NCBI RefSeq assembly: GCF_003014475.1
Contig: NZ_PYGJ01000004.1
Coordinates: 62,001-126,000 of the forward strand
From: Shimia abyssi
Lineage (GTDB): Bacteria > Pseudomonadota > Alphaproteobacteria > Rhodobacterales > Rhodobacteraceae
Direction: 5' to 3'
Length of the DNA: 64,000 bases
Numbering within the stretch: position 1 is the stretch's first letter; every line of letters starts with the position of its first letter. The notes under the pieces were generated by a model that had not been told where the DNA came from, did no database searches, and saw only the letters and a program-made list of their open reading frames with translations. A program made the translations under genes and the position numbers. Shown here in pieces: positions 21,869-27,248 of the stretch.

Positions 21869-22348
21869 TTAGCTGCCCGAGGATTTCTCGACCAAGAGCG
21901 CCTCAAGCATTTGGGCCATAACCTTTGACTGTGAGCCAGGCGTGACGCCGCCAATGCCTACCTTGCGGCCCATCGCCCACCAAAGCCCCGGTTGCCATCT
22001 GCGCGGCCGGGGCTTTTTCAATCGCACCAGAAATCCGTTTGATGGCTTCATCGCAAAAGTTCCCCGTTCGACATTTGCAATCTCATCCAACGTCGCGATC
22101 ACTTCACCGGAACTGCTGCGCAACCCATCGCTGGTCAGCTCGACCATATACTCCGTCGCCCGCCGCGTCCTATCCGCCAGCCACAACGCCGCCAAGCCAG
22201 TCACGATCAGAAATACCTGCCAAGGCAGTGTCGGGGGCGTCGACATGGCAAAGTAAATCAAGATACCGCCTAATAGCGCCATCACGACGATCCCAAACCA
22301 CCGACGCGGCGCCGACGCGCCAACAACTGCGAGTATTTCTTCTTGCAT
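21869..22348 (-). CDS. Small membrane protein of unknown function
   Basis: A 159-aa protein with two adjacent transmembrane segments near the N-terminus (WFGIVVMALLGGILIYFAM and WQVFLIVTGLAALWLAD) followed by a cytoplasmic domain with VELTSDGLRSSSGEVIATLDEI and RRWQPGLWWAMGRKVGIGGV. It is of the PH-like small membrane protein type widespread in Rhodobacteraceae, but I cannot name a characterised function. The start at 22348 (MQEEILAVVG) has AGG-rich sequence upstream; an in-frame ATG four codons earlier is also possible. Confidence 0.65.
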   Translation of the reverse strand: MQEEILAVVGASAPRRWFGIVVMALLGGILIYFAMSTPPTLPWQVFLIVTGLAALWLADRTRRATEYMVELTSDGLRSSSGEVIATLDEIANVERGTFAMKPSNGFLVRLKKPRPRRWQPGLWWAMGRKVGIGGVTPGSQSKVMAQMLEALLVEKSSGS

Positions 22349-22582
22349 ATCATCCCCCAAAACCTGCCCTTTGGCCTACCCTGTCGCGCCGCGCGCTACA
22401 AGTCCGCGAAACTGGGGAGGAGGGCGCATACCGTAGCCCCATAGCAGGTTAAATTCATCAGATTGACAAGCGAAACCCGTGGCAATGCCCGCAATACAAT
22501 AGCACCGCCCGCGCTTCAGATACGCTTTTCTTTGACGTCGGTTACAGTCAATGCACATGTTTGGAAAACGAGAGAGTTCGGG

Positions 22583-22906
22583 TTGCTAGAGTTATTTGGT
22601 CTCATCGCTACTACGATTGCAACGATTGGCGGCATCGCCGCCTATTTCGACGCAGTCATGGGGGACGATGGCCAAAAACGCATTCTGTCTTACGTTGTCC
22701 CCACTAAGCAAGACAATGAAACTGATGAAAACGGCTCTCAAAACGCCACCTATTCCGAAGCGTTGCAGTCCATACTAAGGGTATATGTCTCCGGCCCGAT
22801 GGGACGATTTGACGTGTTTCGCTCGTTGGTCACGTTGCTGATCATCTTGGTAGGAACCAGTATTTTCAGCTTTTATATGGTGCGCCATTTATCCGGCGAC
22901 AGCCTA
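22583..22906 (+). pseudogene. Left part of an interrupted membrane-protein gene
   Basis: From a TTG at 22583 (GAGAG about 7 bp upstream) the frame gives LLELFGLIATTIATIGGIAAYF, a hydrophobic start, then a soluble stretch (VVPTKQDNETDENGSQN) and a second hydrophobic segment SLVTLLIILVGTSIFSFYM ending ...SGDSL at base 22906. There a mobile segment begins. When 22907-25170 is removed, leaving one TA, the frame continues without shift into the right part at 25171. The combined frame is 443 codons (multiple of three). The frame runs on into the mobile segment and stops at 22951. Family not recognised. Confidence 0.75.
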
Positions 22907-22921
22907 GGCTGTGGACCTATA
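22907..22921 (+). repeat. Left terminal inverted repeat of the IS5-like segment
   Basis: GGCTGTGGACCTATA, preceded by TA. It matches the right end in 12 of 15 positions; the mismatches are internal, so it could be an old or alternative end. Confidence 0.7.
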
Positions 22922-23010
22922 AACAGGTCGCAGCGTCAACGGTTGCTTTGACCCAGAGCAGACACTAGCAGAAAACACGGCTATGACCGGGTTGCGGACA
23001 AACCTGCATT

Positions 23011-24183
23011 TCAGGATTGGGTCGCCAGTTCATTCTGCACTAAGGATACAAAATACGCGCATCCGTACGGAATGGCGTCGTCGTTGAAGTCGTAATCCTG
23101 ATTGTGCAGTGCAGCCGTTTCACCATTGCCCATGAACATGAACGCTCCCGGGCGTTCCTCAAGCATGTAAGCGAAATCCTCCGCACCCATGGAAGGCATG
23201 CGATTACCATTTATAGCACTCGGCTCCACGACCGTGGCCGCTGCACGCAACGCCACCTGTGTCTGCTCTGGGTCGTTGTGGGTCACGGGTACATCGTCCA
23301 TGTAACTCAGATGAACCTCGGCTCCGGTCATCTCCGACACGCCCTTACATATCTCGAACATCCGCTGTTTGCCCGCCAAACGAGCAGTACGCGACAGACT
23401 GCGAACGGTCCCCCTAATTTGCGCAGTTTCAGCGACGATGTTGTCCGCTGTTCCCATATGAATTTGCGTGATTGTGACAACATGCTGCGTGGACGAAGCA
23501 ATGCTTCTTGAAACAATCGTTTGAAAGCCCTGAATTATCTGACCGACCGCAATAGCTGGATCAATACCTTGATGTGGAAATGCCGCGTGGCATCCTTTGC
23601 CGGTGATGTTCACTTCAAACAAATCCGCAGAACCCATCACACCGTTTGGGCAGGTTGCGAAATGTCCGACGGGAAGTTGAGGCGCGTTGTGCAACGCAAA
23701 TACCCTTTGAATGCCAAAACGCTCCATTAACCCATCCTTTACCATGGCAAGCCCGCCGCCATCAGCTTCCTCTGCCGGTTGGAATATGAGAATGACGGTT
23801 CCGTCAAAATCCCTGTTTGCTGCGAGATATTGCGCCGCCCCCAATAGCATGACGGTGTGCCCATCATGACCACAGGCATGCATTTTACCTTCGGTTTTGG
23901 ACGCATGAGGAAGGTTCGTCTGCTCTTGCATTGGAAGTGCATCCATATCTGCGCGGAGCCCAACGACGCGATTGCTTTGGGTGCTATTGCCACGTATTAC
24001 GCCGACAACACCCGTTCGGCCTACACCGGTGACAACATCATCAACACTCATCTGCTTCAGACGTTCGGCAACCAGCCCAGCGGTGCGCTCGACGTCGAAG
24101 GACAGTTCCGGATGCGCGTGGAAATCACGCCTCCACTTAACCAGCTTGGACAATTGAGCATCGAAATCGGCAAGGCTGACCAT
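23011..24183 (-). CDS. M20-family amidohydrolase (hippurate hydrolase type)
   Basis: A 390-aa metallo-amidohydrolase that would cleave N-acyl amino acids. Family motifs: LVKWRRDFHAHPELSFDVER at the N-terminus, LRADMDALPM with metal-ligand Asp, HACGHDGHT with metal His, FQPAEEADGGG with the catalytic Glu pair, GKGCHAAFPHQGIDP in the lid domain, and MGAEDFAYM near the C-terminus. The start at 24183 (MVSLADFD) has AGGA 7 bp upstream; an ATG 18 codons earlier is possible. It lies inside the mobile segment, opposite in direction to the transposase. The frame is intact, so it may be functional. Substrate is inferred from family only. Confidence 0.88.
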   Translation of the reverse strand: MVSLADFDAQLSKLVKWRRDFHAHPELSFDVERTAGLVAERLKQMSVDDVVTGVGRTGVVGVIRGNSTQSNRVVGLRADMDALPMQEQTNLPHASKTEGKMHACGHDGHTVMLLGAAQYLAANRDFDGTVILIFQPAEEADGGGLAMVKDGLMERFGIQRVFALHNAPQLPVGHFATCPNGVMGSADLFEVNITGKGCHAAFPHQGIDPAIAVGQIIQGFQTIVSRSIASSTQHVVTITQIHMGTADNIVAETAQIRGTVRSLSRTARLAGKQRMFEICKGVSEMTGAEVHLSYMDDVPVTHNDPEQTQVALRAAATVVEPSAINGNRMPSMGAEDFAYMLEERPGAFMFMGNGETAALHNQDYDFNDDAIPYGCAYFVSLVQNELATQS

Positions 24184-24287
24184 CGGCAATCCTACGGTAT
24201 AATAACTGGGTACCGTTTGATTGTCGCCGAAAGTCACAGAAAAGTCGTCAATTATCTCGGATTACACGGGTCGCTCTGGGCTCTTCT

Positions 24288-24318
24288 CAGTCATCTGAGC
24301 GTTTCTGTCAGATGACTG
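24288..24318. repeat. Perfect 11-bp inverted repeat
   Basis: CAGTCATCTGA (24288-24298) and TCAGATGACTG (24308-24318) are perfect inverse complements around a 9-nt spacer. It sits between the divergent M20 and transposase genes, close to the weak internal IR-like sequence. No T-run follows on either strand. It may be a regulatory or end-proximal structure of the IS. Confidence 0.6.
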
Positions 24319-24400
24319 CTTTGCCGCGTTGAGCGGCCTTTTCGATGATCGATTCCATTCTTTGCTGCATCGTGATTCAACAGCGACTGGAGGATTGTCC

Positions 24401-25158
24401 ATGTCGCATCTGTTCTGGCTCGACCAAGAGCGTCTCAACCGCATCAAGCACATGTTCCCAAAGCCACGTGGTGTTGCTCGTGCTGACGACCGAAAGGTTC
24501 TCAGTGGCATCATCCATGTCATTCGCAATGGCTTGCACTGGCGAGACGCTCCGTCAGACTATGGGCCACATAAGACGCTTTAAAACCGATGGGCGCGATG
24601 GTCCCAGATGGGCGTCTTTGCACGCATCCTTACCGAATTGGCCGCTCAAGGGGATGCAACAGGCACACTAATCATTGATGCGACCGACCTGAAGACCCAT
24701 AGAACAGCGTCCAGCATGGGGCTTAAAAAAGGGGGCGTGATCGCCTGATTGGCCGCACCAAGGGTGGGCTAAATTCGAAACTCCATGCCGTTACCGATGC
24801 GGTGGGTCGTCCCATCCAACTATTTCTGACTGCGGGGAATGTCAGCGATTACATCGGCGCGCGGGCGCTCTTACCCTCACCGCCTTCTGCCGATTGGATG
24901 CTGGCGGATCGCGGCTATGACGCCGATTGGTTTCGGAAGGGCTTGAAAGAAAAGAGCATCAAACCCTGCTTCCCATCACGGCGGAACCGCAAAGACGCCA
25001 TCCAACATGACACCAAGATTTATCGAAGCCGTCACAAGATTGAGAACATGTTTGGACGGTTGAAAGACGGGCGCAGGGTCGCGACCCGCTACGACAGATG
25101 CCCGATAATCTTCCTGTCTGCCATCGCCCTCGCGGCAGCAGTGTTGTTTTGGCTATGA
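24401..25158 (+). pseudogene. IS5-family transposase, two frames, with an in-frame stop
   Basis: The start ATG 24401 (ACTGGAGG upstream) gives MSHLFWLDQERLNRIKHMFP, then HVIRNGLHWRDAPSDYGPHK, both typical of IS5-type transposases. A TAA at 24581-24583 replaces the expected tyrosine codon (TLYNRW), after which the same frame continues with MGVFARILTEL and LIIDATDLKTHRTASS. At A6G5 (24725-24735) the frame must slip by -1 to reach RLIGRTKGGLNSKLHAV, MLADRGYDADWFRKGLKEK (DDE Asp) and YRSRHKIENMFGRLKD (DDE Glu), ending at 25158. The A-run slip resembles programmed frameshifting; the TAA looks like a true inactivating change. Confidence 0.85.
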
Positions 25159-25168
25159 GTCCAGAGCC
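25154..25168 (-). repeat. Right terminal inverted repeat of the IS5-like segment
   Basis: Read inward on the minus strand the end is GGCTCTGGACTCATA, next to TA at 25169-25170. It overlaps the last two codons of the transposase, as is common in compact IS5 elements. Confidence 0.75.
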
Positions 25169-26175
25169 TAAGCGCGCTTCCAAATGAATACACGGCTCAT
25201 AACTTGGTCATCCCGTATGTCATTACGTTTTTGACGTCTTGGTTTTTGGGGCTATTCTCGATCTACCAGGCAATGATTTTCTTTCGACTGTTCGCTCGGT
25301 CAAGCGCACTGATTGAGCGCGGCCTGCTCATCTATGCTGATTTTGCCTAGTCCTATACCGTTACCTTGTTGATTGCCTTTATTTCGATTTTGGGCTCGGT
25401 CATCTCAATTAACCACACGATGGACTACAGCGTTAAAATTGTGCTCACCAAGGAAACTGATCGCAATGACAACGCTGGCTTGTCTTTGCTTGTGACGGGG
25501 AACAACCAGAATCCCAGCGCGTTTACCCAGATGCTGTCGACAGTAGACGAAGATATGACAATCCATGGGTTTCTGAATTACGTGACGCGCGTTCGACCCG
25601 ATTTCACTTTGTCTCCAACGAACTGCTCAAATTTGAGCCAAGATATTATGTCCAAGAGCACCTTTTCAAAGAACGGCGCCAGTACTCGTAAACAGGTCTG
25701 TTACGACGCTCAAATCCGTCGCTCATTCGGGAACCCGGCCAGCGGCCCCGTGTTAATCACCTCCCTGTATTTGGCAATCAATTTAACAGCGAGCTCCGCG
25801 ATTTCCGGTGTCTTTGATCTTATTGTTGCGGACCCAACAAAGCTCGCCGCTACTTTTGTCGCGCCTCCTACCCCCTCCGAAGAGAGCCGGTTGGACGATT
25901 CATTGCGAGCACTCCTCAACGAATTAGCCTCCGTCGAAAACTCGAACTTTCAAGCTTCCCTGGTTCTCTCGCCCTTCATCATGGCATCAGTGTATTTCAC
26001 GATCATGATATACACTTTGGGGGCCGTGATCTTTGCCGCGCGCAAGGCGTCTCTCCTTGCGCGCGCACGTATCCGAATACCTCTGATGAACCCCAAAAAA
26101 ACCATCCTAAGCTTATCGGTTTACGTAAATGCATTTGCTGTTACGATCGTCTGCATCGTCTTTTTCAACACCTGA
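25169..26175 (+). pseudogene. Right part of the interrupted membrane-protein gene, with an internal TAG
   Basis: In the frame continued from the left part, 25171 onward reads SALPNEYTAHNLVIPYV, hydrophobic segments (VITFLTSWFLGLFSIYQAMI and FRLFARSS), then a TAG at 25348-25350, after which the same frame runs on as SYTVTLLIAFISILGSVISI, a soluble loop with NDNAGLSLLVTGNNQNPSAF, and C-terminal helices (FIMASVYFTIMIYTLGAVIF and LSLSVYVNAFAVTIVCIVFF) to 26175. The gene therefore carries at least two lesions: the insertion and the TAG. It would encode a multi-pass membrane protein with a large extracytoplasmic loop. Family unknown. Confidence 0.7.
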
Positions 26176-26204
26176 TCAGCGTTTCGCTAACTACGATCCG
26201 GCGC

Positions 26205-27248
26205 TTAAAATGGCATCGGATGTGCAATGTGTACCTGATCCAGCTCCGCCATAACCTCATCGCTCAACCGCAATCCATCGACCTTCAGGATATGCTCCAG
26301 CTGCGGCAGCGTTGTTGCGCCAAAGATTGAGCTGCACATAAACGGCCGCTGCAAGGTAAAGGCTAACGCCATATGCACGAGATCCAAGCTGTGGCGCTCG
26401 GCAACGTCCACATAGGCATCCACTGCCGCAAAAGCCCGCAGTGTGGTGCGACCGCCCAAGGTGTCCTGCAACGTCTTGCGCGACCCTGCTGGCACAACAC
26501 CGCCCTGATACTTGCCAGTCAACAAACCAGTGGCCAACGGCGAAAACGCCAATAAACCGACATCTTCGTTGACGCTCATCTCAGCCATATCGGTGTCGTA
26601 AAGACGGCACAGCAGCGAGTATTCGTTCTGCACCGTCGCCACACGCGGGCCGCCCACGTCCTCGGCCACGTCCAGCCATTTTGTTGTGCCCCAGGCACTT
26701 TCGTTGCTTAACCCAAACGCTCGGATGCGCCCCTTTTCAACCTCACGCTGCAACGCACCCAGCGCGTCTTGCATATGCGCAATCGTTGACGCCCGGTCTT
26801 GTGCAGATGGATCATATTTCCAGTTCTGGCGGAACATGTATGACCCGCGATTGGGCCAGTGAAATTGATAGAGATCGATATAGTCGGTTTGCAACCGTTT
26901 CAACGAGCCCTCGACTGCCTCCGGAATACTTTCCGCCGTGATCGGCCCGCCCTCGCGGATATGCTTCAACCCGGTGCCCGAGTGTTTCGTCGCCACCACC
27001 ACGTCACCGCGCCGACCGGATTTGGCAATCCAGCTACCAACATATTCCTCACTGCTGCCCTGCGTTTCGGCGGTGATTGGGTTTACCGGATACATTTCTG
27101 CTGTATCTACAAAGGTAACACCACCATCCAACGCCATATCGATCTGTTTATGCGCATCGGCCTCATTGACCTGAGTACCAAACAGCATCGTGCCCAGGCA
27201 CAGTTCCGTCACTTCGATGCCAGTGCGGCCCAAAGGGTTCATCTTCAT
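26205..27248 (-). CDS. Aldo/keto reductase, Tas-like
   Basis: A 347-aa NADP-dependent aldo/keto reductase resembling E. coli Tas. N-terminal GRTGIEVTELCLGTMLFGTQ, catalytic Asp48 and Tyr53 in FVDTAEMYP, the NPITAETQGSSEEYVGSWIA segment specific to the Tas branch, Lys in VVATKHSG and His in LYQFHWPN are visible. C-terminal CSSIFGATTLPQLEHIL is the cofactor-binding end. It is cytoplasmic. The substrate cannot be told from the sequence. It lies downstream of the ureohydrolase gene on the minus strand with a gap of about 96 bp. Confidence 0.88.
   Translation of the reverse strand: MKMNPLGRTGIEVTELCLGTMLFGTQVNEADAHKQIDMALDGGVTFVDTAEMYPVNPITAETQGSSEEYVGSWIAKSGRRGDVVVATKHSGTGLKHIREGGPITAESIPEAVEGSLKRLQTDYIDLYQFHWPNRGSYMFRQNWKYDPSAQDRASTIAHMQDALGALQREVEKGRIRAFGLSNESAWGTTKWLDVAEDVGGPRVATVQNEYSLLCRLYDTDMAEMSVNEDVGLLAFSPLATGLLTGKYQGGVVPAGSRKTLQDTLGGRTTLRAFAAVDAYVDVAERHSLDLVHMALAFTLQRPFMCSSIFGATTLPQLEHILKVDGLRLSDEVMAELDQVHIAHPMPF

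Follow-up and report, generated by a model that had tools for sequence, protein, structure and literature searches.

Among described mobile elements, the closest to the one reported here are the insertion sequences (ISs) of the IS427 group in the IS5 family (IS1248, ISPaes1 and others), which in the sections of PMC3281130 dealing with them are 832-865 bp long and carry no passengers. Mobile insertion cassettes (MICs), which have no transposase, and TMo of Paracoccus, in which one IS copy mobilises adjacent DNA, appear in the same sections; ISs that hold a passenger gene between their two ends ('tIS') are treated in PMC7986276. We analysed a 64,000-nucleotide stretch of the Shimia abyssi genome (contig NZ_PYGJ01000004.1, positions 62,001 to 126,000; hereafter the window, whose own numbering is used) and consider it very likely that its positions 22907-25168 are a passenger-carrying IS of the IS427 group, inserted at a TA in a membrane-protein gene, whose cargo has been exchanged, probably by recombination at repeat halves. 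The parts follow each other as a left module A, an M20-type amidohydrolase gene, a module B, the transposase and the right end R. Module A consists of ~33 bp resembling the left ends of simple relatives plus an inner part, A', which also occurs without the end. Loci, contigs and genomes are denoted below by L, C and G numbers.

The element shares with the IS427 group, as characterized in those sections of PMC3281130 (transposase family, two frames with a frameshift motif, imperfect ends of 13-21 bp and a 2-bp target duplication), the transposase family, the two frames with their motif, here with an extra TAA, and a 2-bp duplication with imperfect ends. IS1248A was among its plasmid matches, with 68.5-68.7% DNA identity. 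However, the window unit is 2,262 bp long and has no end 55-75 bp before the first transposase frame (orfA), as is also the case at all nine B-bearing loci described below. Because of this atypical length and left end we file it as an IS427 derivative and not as a typical member. The 25 plasmid matches listed, out of 435, all start at query base 180 or later, and none of the 435 covers 80% of the query, which indicates that the B block is absent from them.

With the tIS, in the features given by the pertinent part of PMC7986276, the element has in common a passenger gene between the two ends of one IS, since the M20 gene lies between A and R; it differs in that the passenger varies between close relatives of one transposase but keeps a fixed place, with halves of a dispersed repeat on its flanks. 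Unlike the MICs of PMC3281130, as its relevant section defines them, it keeps a broken transposase. It recalls TMo, in the description available from the same source, in the mobilisation of adjacent DNA by one IS copy, but its distal end is formed by a homologous module of ~95 bp instead of a chance sequence. Nor is it a composite transposon, having a single transposase copy and, on the left side, an end module of 95-105 bp. No description of such an IS group was found in titles and the first parts of abstracts, though this counts for little, as neither ISfinder nor subscription papers were part of that search.

Ends and contents of the element

A TA at 22905-22906 is followed from 22907 by GGCTGTGGACCTATAAAC, the left end, and on the right GTCCAGAGCC stops at 25168, with TA directly after it; positions 25151-25170 read GGCTATGAGTCCAGAGCC, then TA. 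The related inverted repeats thus lie beside TA at exactly the positions given by the original prediction. They are imperfect, with 13 of 18 bp identical as counted by eye. At up to three mismatches, a 17-base end pattern matched only these two sites in the whole window, with 0.22 matches expected from shuffled sequences; as the pattern was derived from the two sites themselves, this shows their uniqueness and is no independent test. The features of the element are as follows.

22905-22906: TA on the left, putative copy of the target duplication (other units are alike)
22903-22998, plus strand: module A, comprising the left end and A', which is the 3' half of a dispersed repeat (copies in the same genome on C6, C31, C36 and C28)
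22907-22939, plus strand: left inverted end of ~33 bp, like the left inverted repeat of simple relatives, with which it was compared
23011-24183, minus strand: cargo, an intact M20-type amidohydrolase gene of 390 codons with ATG at 24183 (PF01546, 155 bits; TIGR01891, 340 bits, cut-off 154)
24273-24336, plus strand: module B, starting GGGCTC at 24278, the 5' half of the dispersed repeat (recurring copies)
24288-24318, plus strand: hairpin in B with an 11-bp stem (folding z = -4.67; 0 of 200 shuffles fold as well)
24401-24583, plus strand: transposase orfA, shortened by an in-frame TAA at 24581-24583, with similarity running on to ~24745 (open reading frame and profile matches)
24725-24735, plus strand: A6G5 run, at which a programmed frameshift from orfA into orfB may occur (sequence; two-frame layout of L058)
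24802-25158, plus strand: transposase orfB (PF13586, PF01609; NF033580, IS5 family transposase, 112.2 bits, cut-off 110)
25111-25168, plus strand: R, the right inverted end, overlapping the 3' end of orfB (sequence and other units)
25169-25170: TA on the right (sequence)

The transposase also matches PF13340 with 46.4 bits (cut-off 34.3). In a second unit of the same genome, L058, orfA and orfB encode 117 and 118 amino acids in different frames. The window copy is probably no longer self-mobile because of the in-frame TAA in its orfA. In none of 1,236 plasmid records did the best match to the M20 protein reach 60% identity, and Rfam gave no match within 22000-26500.

Recurrence of complete units

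The first 96 bp of the element recur in its own genome on the four contigs named above, and 24278-25171 recurs at two places of C8. The copy on C28 (L014/L053) repeats the order with another gene, as an A end, a SnoaL-like gene and the B hairpin. A model of A found matches in 16 of 248 family genomes and a model of B in five of 25 genus genomes. The order found elsewhere is A, one or more genes, B at ~60 bp before an IS5/IS427-type transposase, and R. Exact right-end matches downstream of A ends number five (window, L061, L101, L126 and L114), and TA follows four of them. These units vary in size, from 2.8 kb at L101 (Thalassobium sp. R2A62) and 3.4 kb at L126 to 407 bp at L061, which has no gene; all three have the A and R ends next to TA. 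L058, of 2.4 kb, shows R sequence at both ends, each at TA and with a passenger between; in place of A, its left end repeats 43 bp of its own R end exactly. In L244 (2.1 kb), left and right ends at TA enclose a degenerate middle. Both ends were located in seven units altogether, and TA stands at both ends in six of the seven.

The same pair of ends at TA therefore bounds other elements with other contents, independently of the window, which bears out the insertion ends and probable TA duplication that had been proposed. The window insert belongs to a family of cargo-bearing elements, a point that the original prediction missed. The TA on both sides and the recurrent ends suggest that the unit would move as one piece, for which ends of the form GGCTCTGGAC, with a TA duplication, would be expected. 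Everything from the A end to the R end would have been moved together by the element's own transposase or, in trans, by that of a relative, the left end being placed 1.3 kb further out than in an ordinary IS427 copy, with the M20 gene between. The A...B segments devoid of transposase and the 407-bp L061 look like derivatives of the MIC type or of the type of miniature inverted-repeat transposable elements (MITEs).

The surroundings of two left ends may be mentioned here. At L126 (~5972, G308) a gene that by eye is trmD-like has its stop codon only a few bases from the left end, with a rimM-like gene beside it. At L055 (729-1319 and 1493-1587, on C36) an A end lies just 3' of a short NAD-epimerase-like frame, likewise by eye, beside an HxlR regulator; this is possibly another interrupted gene.

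Left ends and module B at transposase loci

A scan of genome contigs with the first transposase frame gave 42 transposase loci, a redundant set in which five come from one Rhizobiales genome. Twenty-five of them lack B and have a left end at TA, 55-74 bp before the transposase. At nine, B lies ~60 bp before the transposase and there is no left end at the usual place. No locus has both, and eight have neither or are truncated. Named B holders are Tateyamaria, Ruegeria (two), Thalassobium sp. R2A62, an uncultured Roseobacter, Marimonas, and metagenome-assembled genomes (MAGs) of Notoacmeibacter, of a Rhodobacteraceae member and of an organism labelled Betaproteobacteria. Since B-bearing transposases have no left end nearby, 24278-25171 is not a complete IS. 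Over all searches, B precedes this transposase or its remnant at 18 places (window, L058, L059, L101, L118, L126, L110, L127, L114, L161, L162, L164, L165, L166, L183, L194 and two in G205; the remnants at L110, L127 and L114 were recognised by eye). B-bearing transposases for which no left end was seen may be longer units, recombination products or wrecks.

The transposases of the window, C8a and L161 are 95-97% identical in DNA. Twelve of the 13 B-bearing rows in an orfA tree form one clade, with L118 outside it; L101 and L163 are the same element. We also considered B as the left end of an 890-bp IS and set this aside, as most copies have no adjoining TA and none ends there with a target duplication, although a sharp edge of B in G205, discussed below, keeps the idea alive.

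A dispersed repeat around the cargo

Thirty-four copies of A have the inverted end. A B on the same strand lies downstream of it, within 5 kb, in 12 of these and upstream in none, while B on the opposite strand was found twice downstream and once upstream. The regions for this count were chosen around A or B matches and are not a random sample, which weakens it as support for our interpretation. The arrangement is the opposite where A' occurs without the end, as B then lies 22-42 bp upstream in seven of 13 cases. The whole B-A' repeat, of ~165 bp, aligns across eight loci of several genomes. As same-strand B is found only downstream of an A that has its end, a passenger between A' and B stands in the reverse of the free-repeat order B-A'. 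The genomes of L164 and L166 contain 14 matches each to the A model, most of them covering the inner part only, and L166 itself reads B-A'-cargo-B-transposase, the cargo there lying between a free repeat and the IS. The dispersed repeat is intergenic in several genomes of the family, at L102, L103, L111, L120, L121, L125, L129 and L131, and its halves in the window have no Rfam match.

Direct evidence of exchange comes from the 5' block of the window copy, which is recombinant relative to its own transposase. Window and C8a differ at 33 of 126 positions in B plus the leader and at 37 of 754 in the transposase part (p = 3.6e-12). The corresponding values between C8a and L161 are 4 of 126 and 22 of 754 (p = 0.78), so the block does not simply evolve fast. 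Both p-values treat sites as independent and are uncorrected for the nine pairs tried. The window leader is closest to that of L165 (92%), whose transposase part is only 80% like that of the window.

Cargo was identified with Pfam in eight units, and no gene set occurs twice among them:

Window: M20
L058: DUF900 hydrolase
L101: TetR, NmrA-like and anthrone-oxygenase-like
L126: EamA, LysR and alpha/beta hydrolase
L127: P5C-reductase-like protein
L114: alpha/beta hydrolase and MarR
L118 (1977-5863, G055): AraC regulator and two overlapping beta-lactamase-family frames
L053: SnoaL

An alpha/beta hydrolase is common to L126 and L114, whose sets are otherwise distinct, and cargo orientation varies among units. 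Cargo was read for seven of the 12 same-strand A-B pairs. L061 is free of genes; L102, L111, L123 and L133, with modules 2.6-4.2 kb apart and no transposase remnant, were left out, and L110 and L130, where A' has no clear end, were left out of the unit count. In G187 the TetR, NmrA and anthrone-oxygenase-like set occurs twice, in the unit L101 and outside it (L149), the two being 68% identical; the outside copy matches neither A nor R and matches B only weakly (E 0.009).

The mosaic, the fixed position of the cargo and the existence of free repeats lead us to propose that cargo is exchanged at the repeat halves. A' and B around the passenger would be pieces of the dispersed intergenic repeat that serve as handles for recombination, a step of which we are less sure. 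Tentatively, and as something possible more than probable, the IS427-type clade might be a gene-swapping platform, in which the transposase moves whatever lies between the A'-fused left end and the B-fused leader, and recombination with genomic repeats loads, exchanges and stacks passengers.

The interrupted membrane-protein gene

The two parts of the split gene are the following.

22583-22906, plus strand: 5' part of the membrane-protein frame, 108 codons, in a frame open from a TTG at 22463 (coding score)
25171-26175, plus strand: 3' part, with the in-frame TAG (joined frame and coding score)

When 22906 is joined to 25171, the sequence reads as one frame of 442 residues with a single TAG (25348-25350), in keeping with the continuous frame that had been predicted. 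The codon-usage score of the joined frame is +0.126 for 22583-22906, +0.110 for 25171-25347 and +0.101 for 25366-26172, and it is negative for all five other frames in each of the three pieces. As each piece scores as coding only in the joined frame, both halves are coding-like and not just open. The gene is dead twice, or nearly so, by the insertion and by the TAG.

The 5' part had no Pfam or NCBIfam match above cut-off, and the C-terminal piece had no homologue in any of 99 other relatives or 393 other family genomes. With the joined protein as query, 384 other genomes of the class yielded no more than two matches, both marginal at 17 bits or less; one is, by eye, an ABC-permease reading frame and the other is no convincing membrane protein. 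No homologue was found in plasmids, viral contigs or the wider genome-contig scan. As far as these sequence comparisons reach, the gene is an orphan with no detectable relative.

The block 22360-26200 of the window, between Tad-like genes and an aldo-keto reductase gene, is missing from five genomes of the genus (G002, G023, G004, G014 and G015). The neighbour genes are 80-147 bp apart there and ~3.85 kb apart in the window. As the membrane gene is absent from those five genomes, it arrived on its own.

Alternative explanations

Several observations weigh against a passenger-carrying IS that moves as one unit. No same-strand B was found within 5 kb downstream for 22 of the 34 A ends. The right end of L114 has no TA after it, and L053 is an A-gene-B arrangement with neither transposase remnant nor right end, its left end lying beside CA instead of TA. 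Among B-bearing transposases, L164, L165, L183 and L194 have no recognisable left end within ~5.9 kb, L166 has none in the 3.3 kb examined and L059 has none either. No empty site and no orthologue crossing the junction was found in relatives, family, class, plasmids, viral contigs or genome contigs. Empty sites were likewise not found for L058 or L101, in the comparisons of which (within the genus and within the genome, respectively) the flanks align too imprecisely. Finally, G205 has two copies with 1,052 bp of perfect identity that stops exactly where B has its outer edge, a boundary not to be expected from plain homologous recombination within B. The identity in G205 spans the first B bases through R into a split tRNA gene, and the sequences beyond B are unrelated. 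These copies (L242 and L243, G205:C1 ~2253988 and 2312298) are ~58 kb apart and end in a tRNA gene (Asn-like by eye) that is intact in one case and split in the other. They seem to mark the two ends of an island integrated at a tRNA gene, and could have a different history.

The IS could have inserted first, with the M20 segment and its flanking repeat halves recombined in later at this very locus. The recombinant 5' block agrees with this in that an exchange did happen on some copy, its timing relative to the insertion not being fixed by the data. Yet the close relatives of the window transposase include no simple member with a near end and no B, as shown by the single clade of 12 of the 13 B-bearing rows, and we regard this sequence of events as unlikely, if still worth keeping in mind.

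Passengers might instead enter by a site-specific, integron-like step, in which a circle made up of a gene and an entire repeat would open at the boundary of B and A'. The unit order A'-gene-B is indeed a circular permutation of the repeat order B-A', array-like B-A' junctions occur at L166, L102 and L103, and the junction at the outer B edge in G205 is sharp. However, homologous recombination at dispersed repeats accounts for most of the pattern, and no recombinase is known to act at the repeat, with no search aimed at recombinases having been made. Moreover, the core of an integron cassette site is short, whereas B and A' are long halves; by eye only, the repeat does not fit such core sites, with no dedicated search for attC or integrase made. 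We judge an integron-like entry to be improbable.

A patchwork of separate events that left an IS end fragment, the M20 gene and a complete second IS side by side, with ends matching by shared family, is very improbable: many A ends do stand alone, and the search of the own genome first gave the left 96 bp as end fragments and 24278-25171 as a separate 894-bp segment, but further units, in other genomes, are delimited at TA by these A and R ends, an A with its inverted end never has a same-strand B upstream (0 of 34), and at all nine B-bearing loci the transposase is without a nearby left end. Our first idea, of two neighbouring but unrelated ISs, was dropped once the order A-gene-B-transposase-R recurred elsewhere.

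Significance of the IS group

Passenger-carrying ISs are known, and to our knowledge the route by which an IS gains new passengers is mostly unexplained. What is interesting about the passenger-carrying IS in S. abyssi is the whole group to which it belongs, together with the repeat halves that flank the cargo. Passengers that differ between closely related transposases but keep their position, with flanks that are halves of a repeat intact elsewhere, offer a concrete and testable capture mechanism. For genome annotation, enzymes such as the M20 amidohydrolase may be mobile even though the nearest transposase looks plain, with the true left end lying beyond the gene. If the mechanism is true, ordinary chromosomal genes beside such a repeat would become mobile.

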